IMG/VR virus record: IMGVR_UViG_3300034112_000268
Location: 1-20,525 of that record
Strand: one strand, 5' to 3'
DNA: 20,525 bases
Origin: a virus
The number at the start of each line of letters is the position of its first letter. Positions within the stretch are counted from its first letter, which is position 1. The position numbers and the translations under genes were made by a program. This document shows positions 959 through 2,125 of the stretch, in pieces. The notes beneath the pieces were generated by a model. The model did not search any database. It worked only from the letters and a program-made list of their open reading frames with translations, and was not told where the DNA came from.

Positions 959-2125
959 ATGAGACATGGATCACTATTTAGCGGAATAGGAGGCTTTGAT
1001 TTAGCCTCCGAATGGATGGGATGGGAGAATGTTTTCCATTGTGAGTGGAATGAGTTTGGACAGAAAGTTTTAAATTATTATTGGCCTAAAGCAATATCAT
1101 ATCATGATATCACAAAGACAGATTTCTCTATTCACAGAGGAACAATTGACATCATTACCGGTGGATTCCCATGCCAACCCTATTCAATGGCAGGAAAAAG
1201 AAAAGGCAAAGAGGATGAACGCCATTTATGGCCCGAAATGCTTAGAGCAATACGAGAAATTCAACCGACATGGGTCGTGGGCGAAAATGTTCTCGGACTT
1301 GTTAATTGGGATGGAGGGTTGGTATTCCACGAGGTGCAAGCTGACTTGGAAGCTCAAGGGTACGAAGTACAACCGTATGTACTTCCAGCTGCAAGCGTCA
1401 ACGCTCCACACAGAAGGGACAGGGTTTGGTTTGTTGCTTACTCCAAATCTTGTGCAGATAGCAGAAAGTCCAGAAGAATATCAAACGAGGCAAAAGAAGA
1501 GAACGGAGGATGGATTAAACCAGGCCCCTCATCCGAACAACAAGTACAACTGCCTACTGAGTCAGGTTATTTATTCCGGTCTGTTAAAAACTCCAACAAA
1601 GATGGATGGGGAAGTGAGTTCGGGCAAAAAGAATCCAATATCGGGGAACAGCGGAACTCTTGCTCAAGAGATAATGAGTGGATACCCACCGACAATGAAA
1701 AAGTTAGGGATGCTACCGACTCCTCAAGCCTCGGATTTTGTAAGTACAGTTCAGGAGAACAATTATTCTCTGAGACATTTGGAACACAATTCGGGATGGA
1801 CAAAGAAAATGCTTCCGACTCCAGTAGTATCAGACAAGAATGCAGGGAGGAGGGGGAATGCTCCAAGAGAAGGTCACAATCCAATGACAAATTCATTAAA
1901 AGACGCAATAAATTACCAGGAGCAGACTTCGAAATGTTCCCATCTGTCTCCCCAATTTGTGATGGAGATGATGGGCTTTCCGACAGATTGGACTCTATTA
2001 CCTTTCCTAAATGGAGAAACGAATCAATTAAAGCAGGAGGAAACGCAATAGTCCCCCAAGTAGTCTATCAGATATTTAAAGCAATCGAGCAGTATAATCA
2101 ACTTGATAAGCAACTATCTATATGA
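959..2125 (+). CDS. DNA (cytosine-5-)-methyltransferase
   Basis: A SAM-dependent enzyme that methylates C5 of cytosine in DNA. With the preferred ATG at 959 (388 aa) the protein begins MRHGSLFSGIGGFDLA, which is motif I (residues 4-16). A start at 941 would add six residues with no family support. Motif IV is GGFPCQPYS (68-76, nucleophile Cys72), motif VI is GEN (108-110), motif VIII is APHRRDRVWF (149-158) and motif X is GNAIVPQV (361-368). Residues about 161-320, where the target-recognition domain should lie, are rich in Ser, Asn, Asp and Glu and look unstructured. The same DNA carries a second long reading frame (1104-2051). The stop overlaps the downstream nuclease start as ATGA. No cognate restriction enzyme is visible, so a role in protecting phage DNA from host restriction is the simplest inference. 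Confidence 0.93.
   Translation: MRHGSLFSGIGGFDLASEWMGWENVFHCEWNEFGQKVLNYYWPKAISYHDITKTDFSIHRGTIDIITGGFPCQPYSMAGKRKGKEDERHLWPEMLRAIREIQPTWVVGENVLGLVNWDGGLVFHEVQADLEAQGYEVQPYVLPAASVNAPHRRDRVWFVAYSKSCADSRKSRRISNEAKEENGGWIKPGPSSEQQVQLPTESGYLFRSVKNSNKDGWGSEFGQKESNIGEQRNSCSRDNEWIPTDNEKVRDATDSSSLGFCKYSSGEQLFSETFGTQFGMDKENASDSSSIRQECREEGECSKRRSQSNDKFIKRRNKLPGADFEMFPSVSPICDGDDGLSDRLDSITFPKWRNESIKAGGNAIVPQVVYQIFKAIEQYNQLDKQLSI
1104..2051 (+). CDS. Overprinted ORF: LPTP-repeat phage protein inside the methyltransferase gene (315 aa)
   Basis: This 315-codon ORF lies wholly inside the methyltransferase gene, in the +1 frame relative to it. It has features I recognise from a recurring phage and metagenome family of unknown function. 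These are CLEQYEKFNRHGSWAKMF (46-63), a KLTWKLKGTKYNRMYFQL segment (79-96), spaced TP repeats (LLTP near 111, LKTP near 161, MLPTPQASD at 203-211, MLPTPVVSD at 236-244) and a C-terminal LSPQFVMEMMGFPTDW block (281-296). Some relatives are annotated as methyltransferases or fused to them. The frame opens at 1074 and ATG 1104 is the first Met; no ribosome-binding site is evident. It has no membrane segments. An unselected frame would be unlikely to show ordered family motifs over 300 codons, so I call it coding, but expression is unproven. Confidence 0.65.
   Translation: MISQRQISLFTEEQLTSLPVDSHANPIQWQEKEKAKRMNAIYGPKCLEQYEKFNRHGSWAKMFSDLLIGMEGWYSTRCKLTWKLKGTKYNRMYFQLQASTLHTEGTGFGLLLTPNLVQIAESPEEYQTRQKKRTEDGLNQAPHPNNKYNCLLSQVIYSGLLKTPTKMDGEVSSGKKNPISGNSGTLAQEIMSGYPPTMKKLGMLPTPQASDFVSTVQENNYSLRHLEHNSGWTKKMLPTPVVSDKNAGRRGNAPREGHNPMTNSLKDAINYQEQTSKCSHLSPQFVMEMMGFPTDWTLLPFLNGETNQLKQEETQ

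Follow-up and report, generated by a model that had tools for sequence, protein, structure and literature searches.

A second gene nested in the +1 frame of a phage cytosine-5 DNA methyltransferase gene and a proposed two-subunit methyltransferase read from the same DNA

The window analyzed here, a virus record of 20,525 bases, carries a cytosine-5 DNA methyltransferase (MTase) gene, and inside it a second open reading frame in the +1 frame, which we call the LP or LPTP protein. The inner frame is demonstrably a real second gene, and both readings of the DNA are preserved by evolution. We propose, with a probability of roughly 0.86, that a split cytosine-5 DNA methyltransferase is made from this locus, with its two chains read from the same DNA in two frames, and that it would protect the phage DNA. 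The outer chain (alpha) would be the catalytic half of this enzyme, and the inner chain (beta) very probably chooses the DNA sequence to be methylated. Long same-strand overlaps with a recognizable function for both proteins are, to our knowledge, rare in bacteria and phages, and a literature search found no paper describing or explaining this phage family of overprinted MTases. The family is widespread, offers an unusually complete evolutionary series, and can be tested cheaply.

The methyltransferase frame and the frame within it

The initial annotation had assigned motifs I, IV, VI, VIII, and X of a cytosine MTase to the frame at 959-2125 and had described a 315-codon ORF nested in its +1 frame at 1104-2051. 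All five motifs are present, and the coordinates, frame, and length of the inner ORF were exact (Table 1). The alpha frame matches PF00145 (E=4e-46), phrog_363 (1e-72), and TIGR00675 (5e-42), and the large domain of its AlphaFold2 model resembles M.HhaI (Foldseek E=1.6e-12). When the alpha profile was compared with four canonical MTases by hhalign, it aligned over motifs I-VIII and again over motif X, with no profile match to these four enzymes in the interval that separates motif VIII from motif X. The AlphaFold2 model is confident for the large domain and the C-terminal helix, with pLDDT below 50 nearly throughout residues 184-340, a predicted disordered middle of 157 residues. The target-recognition domain (TRD) and motif IX that a complete single chain of the PF00145 type carries between motifs VIII and X were not found in alpha. 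Given the profile gap between motifs VIII and X and the predicted disorder at 184-340, the alignments and the model indicate that alpha has neither a TRD nor motif IX.

Table 1. Features of the nested methyltransferase locus in the window
Feature	Coordinates	Strand	Basis
Alpha subunit, m5C DNA methyltransferase ORF	959..2125	+	388 aa from ATG 959; ORF open from TTG 941
Alpha motif I (SLFSGIGGFDLA)	971..1006	+	columns (nearly) invariant in homologue alignments; aligned to canonical MTases
Alpha motif IV with catalytic Cys (GGFPCQPYS)	1160..1186	+	homologue alignments; alignment to canonical MTases
Alpha motif VI (GENV)	1280..1291	+	homologue alignments; alignment to canonical MTases
Alpha motif VIII (APHRRDRVWFVA)	1403..1438	+	homologue alignments; alignment to canonical MTases
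Alpha residues 184-340, unconserved, predicted disordered, shadow of beta frame	1508..1978	+	pLDDT, profile alignment, codon-position changes
Alpha motif X (GNAIVPQVVYQIFKAIEQ)	2039..2092	+	hhalign match to canonical motif X
Proposed beta subunit (LP/LPTP protein), 315 aa, +1 frame relative to MTase	1104..2051	+	phrog_1008, homologues, selection
Beta N-terminal domain (GLWAKTF..WYSTRCKLTWKLKGTKYNRMYFQL), over alpha motifs IV-VIII	1104..1433	+	columns nearly invariant in beta alignment
Beta module 1 (LLTPN..SGL)	1434..1583	+	module parsing
Beta module 2 (LKTPT..LGM)	1584..1712	+	module parsing
Beta module 3 (LPTPQ..KKM)	1713..1811	+	module parsing; also at positions 1-3 in other phages
Beta module 4 (LPTPV..CSH)	1812..1943	+	module parsing
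Beta motif IX-like block (LSPQFVMEMMGFPTDW)	1944..1991	+	single-chain mycobacteriophage MTases; PSSM

The beta frame matches phrog_1008 (E=2.8e-23), a family labelled 'DNA methyltransferase'; it has no match among Pfam and NCBIfam models, and a search of PDB sequences returned nothing at E<=10. Its AlphaFold2 model, built with 79 sequences, reached a pTM of 0.26 and had no fold match in the PDB, which counts against the explanation proposed here. In this low-confidence model, the N-terminal domain has a helix and a beta-hairpin at 79-99. Across homologues, the variable part of beta is made up of one to six modules with a median length of 41 residues, each opening with an LPTP-like signature; the beta of the window has four such modules followed by LSPQFVMEMMGFPTDW. 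Module parsing places one and the same module at differing array positions in different phages, which means that modules are exchanged.

The LSPQFVMEMMGFPTDW block has the spacing of motif IX, as in RRLTPREMFRLQGFPDTY of a canonical MTase. Its score on a motif IX position-specific scoring matrix is 18.2, compared with a mean of 6.1 for shuffled sequences, of which 21 of 5000 reach 18.2 (p about 0.004). The R-E of motif IX is replaced by Q-F in beta, four of 493 other ORFs score equally high, and an hhalign comparison of LP with the four canonical MTases failed to recover motif IX. Judged by its own letters, the block has a modest likeness to motif IX that is suggestive only.

Upstream of the MTase gene, positions 44-739 of the window hold the C-terminal part of a DUF3987-like helicase that ends in a helix-turn-helix, near the contig end. 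No restriction gene was recognized among the flanking ORFs scanned, several of which had no match.

Selection on the two reading frames

Two sets of homologues were used, the first retrieved with the inner protein and the second with the conserved N-terminal part of the MTase, the second frame being left unused to avoid bias. The initial annotation had raised the question of whether the +1 frame stays open among homologous MTase genes, and it does: in the second set, the LP frame is open to a C-terminal M[MI]GFPxDW block in 73 of the 74 loci with a complete MTase. One locus counted as open (L125) has the variant block EIMGFPEDW, and the only exception (L109) has in-frame stops after 45 codons. 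Both frames are open in 107 distinct homologues, and the remaining forward frame has on average 22 stops in the corresponding stretch. When the codons of the window MTase were shuffled synonymously, the +1 frame was open over 315 codons in 0 of 5,000 shuffles; the shuffled genes had a mean of 8.9 stops in +1 and a longest +1 ORF of 280 codons. Loci with one frame broken by a frameshift or stop are rare and comprise L233 from Mucilaginibacter, L045 of the first set with one TGA in its LP frame, and L069 and L109, which come from one contig.

Suppression of synonymous change, the other sign of dual coding named by the initial annotation, is likewise seen. Sequence pairs differ at 4-fold degenerate MTase sites by a mean of 0.50 upstream of the overlap and 0.54 downstream, and inside the overlap this value falls to 0.30 in the N-terminal part, 0.18 in the variable part, and 0.14 in the C-terminal part (p = 8e-6 versus outside). 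Several of these sites within the overlap never differ in thousands of comparisons. Both frames are constrained at the LP start (1118-1142) and in two further stretches, at about 1277-1395 and at about 1940-2006. These stretches do not include the two places for which conservation of both proteins had earlier been claimed, around the PCQ motif (1160-1178) and the APHRRDR motif (1403-1406); MTase silent sites there vary as much as in the non-overlapping parts of the gene, which shows that neither motif is a place of conservation for the second frame.

Pair tests were made with omega-like ratios in 118 close pairs and with codon-position counts in 35 disjoint pairs. In the close pairs, the ratio in the N part is 0.18 for the MTase and 1.5 for LP, in the variable part 3.7 for the MTase and 0.31 for LP, and at the C-terminal end 0.65 for the MTase and 0.41 for LP. 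The MTase value of 3.7 arises because MTase codon position 1 in this register is LP position 3, the wobble position. In the variable region of the disjoint pairs, there were 136 changes at LP position 2 versus 487 at LP position 3 (p = 3e-47). Constraint is therefore split along the gene, lying on the MTase frame in motifs I-VIII, where LP is on average unconstrained, on the second frame in the variable middle, and on both at the C-terminal end. Within the variable region, it is the second frame that is constrained, and the MTase frame is its shadow, drifting.

These results bear directly on whether the LPTP frame is instead an untranslated shadow of MTase codon usage, mistaken for a family (phrog_1008) since MTases are common. 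An LP match does lie over an MTase gene in nearly all loci with enough sequence, and LP has neither a solved structure nor a Pfam family, as a shadow ORF would lead one to expect. However, freezing of MTase silent sites is confined to the overlap, it is the MTase frame that changes freely in the variable region, no synonymous shuffle kept the +1 frame open, and LP sequence is found in frame within single-chain MTases (described below). The selection evidence and the synonymous shuffles rule out a shadow ORF, and we assign that reading a negligible probability. Between the two alternatives posed by the initial annotation, a true dual-coding gene or a shadow of the MTase, the open frame and suppressed synonymous sites decide for dual coding.

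The overlap occurs in the same phase in Bacteroidota genomes, in Paenibacillus and Lacticaseibacillus phages (Bacillota), and in actinophages. In addition, 28 of 399 sampled genomes from the phylum of a Burkholderiaceae MAG (Pseudomonadota) match phrog_1008, and the loci inspected have the same +1 layout. In chromosomal elements of Bacteroides and relatives (L216-L221 and L231), the MTase frame is broken two to three times, by TGA only, and the inner frame is intact; several of these TGA codons stand where relatives have a conserved Trp (AAE*MGW, FSR*RQAS). Recoding of TGA was rejected, as neighboring genes follow the standard code and a search for a suppressor tRNA found none. These codons may reflect readthrough, decay, or a loss of alpha with beta kept.

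Single-chain relatives and the proposed enzyme

The key comparison is with the cluster F mycobacteriophages WillSterrel, Cornucopia, Phasih, Akhila, and Wachhund, in which the MTase is one chain read in one frame throughout, with motifs I-VIII followed by two to five LPTP modules, EWMMGWPxGW, and motif X. The LP profile scores 23-41 bits on these single-chain MTases, with all matches confined to the interval from motif VIII to motif X; shuffled versions reached 0 bits at best. In the WillSterrel chain of 391 residues, the LP profile falls at 196-354 and the MT profile at 1-162 and 361-377. These profile computations establish, at the level of sequence, that the module array and motif-IX block of beta share homology with the TRD region that the single-chain relatives carry in frame. 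Because LPTP modules and MMGWPxGW lie in frame between motifs VIII and X in the mycobacteriophages, the second frame of the window would encode the TRD and motif IX that alpha lacks. The initial annotation had given the inner protein no function, and it is this comparison that supplies one.

Other layouts were also seen. The single chain of Gordonia phage Trax has a weak LP match of 8.4 bits, confined to the motif-IX block, and Gordonia phage GordTnk2 (L314) has a third layout in which LPTP, motif IX, and motif X stand together in the +1 frame. One small indel could turn one layout into another. In three cluster F mycobacteriophage loci (L308, L310, and L317), the +1 frame retains the beta N-terminal domain and one LPTP module, with the other modules in frame 0; this remnant may be a relic, a mini-beta, or a frameshift product. 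In mycobacteriophage XFactor (L312, 1631-2359), the record annotates only the +1 ORF (gp67, hypothetical), and the surrounding MTase was missed.

Streptococcus phage MM1 (L306, 1498-2658) and Lactococcus phage D7893 (L307) have single-chain MTases with their own motif IX (RKLTPRECWRLQGFPDW), and these probably carry their own TRD as well. They keep a +1 ORF of 161-165 codons that ends in LSDILEExVDExYFLS, the role of which is not explained by the two-subunit model. That MTases with an in-frame motif IX keep this shorter +1 ORF suggests that its N-terminal domain may do something else too. Together with the Bacteroides elements, where LP stays open over an MTase frame with several TGA codons, this conservation would also fit an LP that is genuinely overprinted but serves another purpose, such as anti-defense or regulation, and has no part in the MTase. 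We consider this quite improbable, as the parts absent from alpha are exactly those that LP resembles, and the LPTP modules and motif IX are found in frame in single-chain MTases.

A programmed frameshift fusing the two frames into one product, in place of two independent chains, could be imagined from the cluster F phages, where the first LPTP module is in +1 and the rest in frame 0, so that a slip would give a fused chain. This is highly improbable for the family of the window, in which LP has its own stop and its own start codon; roughly 77 of 107 homologues have an ATG at the aligned position, and others have alternative in-frame starts farther upstream. In MM1 and D7893, an SD-like AGGAG precedes the aligned start by about 12 nt, and a product running from motif I to motif IX would have to shift back to reach motif X. 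No Shine-Dalgarno site was seen before ATG 1104 in the window, a point that weighs against the preferred explanation of two separately started chains.

In the two-subunit enzyme that we favor, one mRNA would give two chains, with translation of beta beginning at an ATG inside the gene that is offset by one base. Motifs I-VIII, for SAM binding and catalysis, and motif X would come from alpha, and beta would supply its N-terminal domain, the LPTP module array as the target-recognition domain or domains, and motif IX. The beta N-terminal domain may be the alpha-binding part, docking on alpha while the modules read the DNA and motif IX packs against the large domain. Translation of beta and its assembly with alpha are what we infer from the conserved frames, and the assembled enzyme would methylate phage DNA, most likely against host restriction; this role is likely since no restriction gene was recognized nearby. 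From motif VIII to motif X, the alpha reading would be a tolerated disordered linker and selection would see the beta reading, and at both ends of the overlap both readings would matter.

By analogy with known module arrays, each beta module may read its own target, which would make the enzyme multispecific. A further reading, which we hold to be slightly better than an even bet, is that the +1 frame holds target-recognition cassettes that act in trans and can be shuffled and exchanged within the array, with phages recombining modules of about 41 residues to change or add specificities and the catalytic frame over the same bases having only to stay open. If so, a single gene would hold both a fixed catalyst and a library of specificities able to evolve. 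This system allows a direct test of what overprinting costs and what it gains, since natural variants number in the hundreds, single-chain relatives offer an evolutionary key, and methylated sites can be measured. The results also suggest that, among phage MTases annotated as complete, many represent only one of two subunits; failures of expression or of specificity prediction would then have an explanation.

Comparison with known methyltransferases

In M.EcoHK31I, too, the coding sequence of the small chain lies within the large gene in a different reading frame. The family of the window resembles M.EcoHK31I and M.EaeI in having motifs I-VIII and X on the large chain and motif IX on the small one, a likeness of motif layout. 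Single-chain homology together with the alpha and beta alignments places motif IX on the second polypeptide, and the beta gene lies nested in the alpha gene in another frame. The family differs from M.EcoHK31I in being phage-borne with no recognized restriction gene adjoining, in a beta with a variable array of one to six modules under selection, in the assignment of the TRD to beta, and in hosts of at least four phyla.

M.AquI and M.EcoHK31I each consist of two polypeptides (PMC3404938). M.AquI is split in the variable region, so that one chain bears the catalytic motifs and the second has the distal variable region together with motif IX, and in M.EcoHK31I only motif IX is on the smaller polypeptide and the predicted TRD is on the larger, alpha (PMC3404938). 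This placement is opposite to ours and counts against the proposed explanation. It would favor a split MTase in which beta gives motif IX alone, alpha reads the target, and the LPTP modules are spacers, a reading we regard as unlikely: the alpha middle is unconserved, predicted to be disordered, and mutationally free, and the LP modules are under purifying selection and lie at the place of the TRD in single-chain relatives. The proposed assignment of the TRD to beta thus puts in question where the TRD lies in EcoHK31I-like enzymes. Compared with M.AquI, motif X remains on alpha in the window family and the genes are nested; GordTnk2 has an AquI-like motif distribution, with motifs IX and X together in its second frame.

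Among phage genomes already in GenBank, Paenibacillus phage Lily gp63, Streptococcus phage MM1 ORF14, and mycobacteriophage XFactor gp67 are +1 ORFs inside MTase genes, Lily gp63 being recorded as 'g62 internal gene' and MM1 ORF14 lying inside ORF13. These, like phrog_1008, are named for the overlapping gene or as hypothetical, and their records give no role.

The target-recognition units of Bacillus phage MTases are roughly 40 residues long. As in those multispecific enzymes, the modules of the window family are serial units that follow motif VIII and precede motif IX in a phage MTase; they are tandem, number one to six, and differ in position among phages, and by this analogy the LP array appears to resemble a TRD array. 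Serial TRDs are described for Bacillus subtilis phage MTases (Behrens 1987; Trautner 1996; as cited in PMC4081073 and PMC12707154). The Bacillus phage units are in frame on one chain, whereas the modules of the window family are in +1 on a separate chain and come to lie in frame only in the mycobacteriophages.
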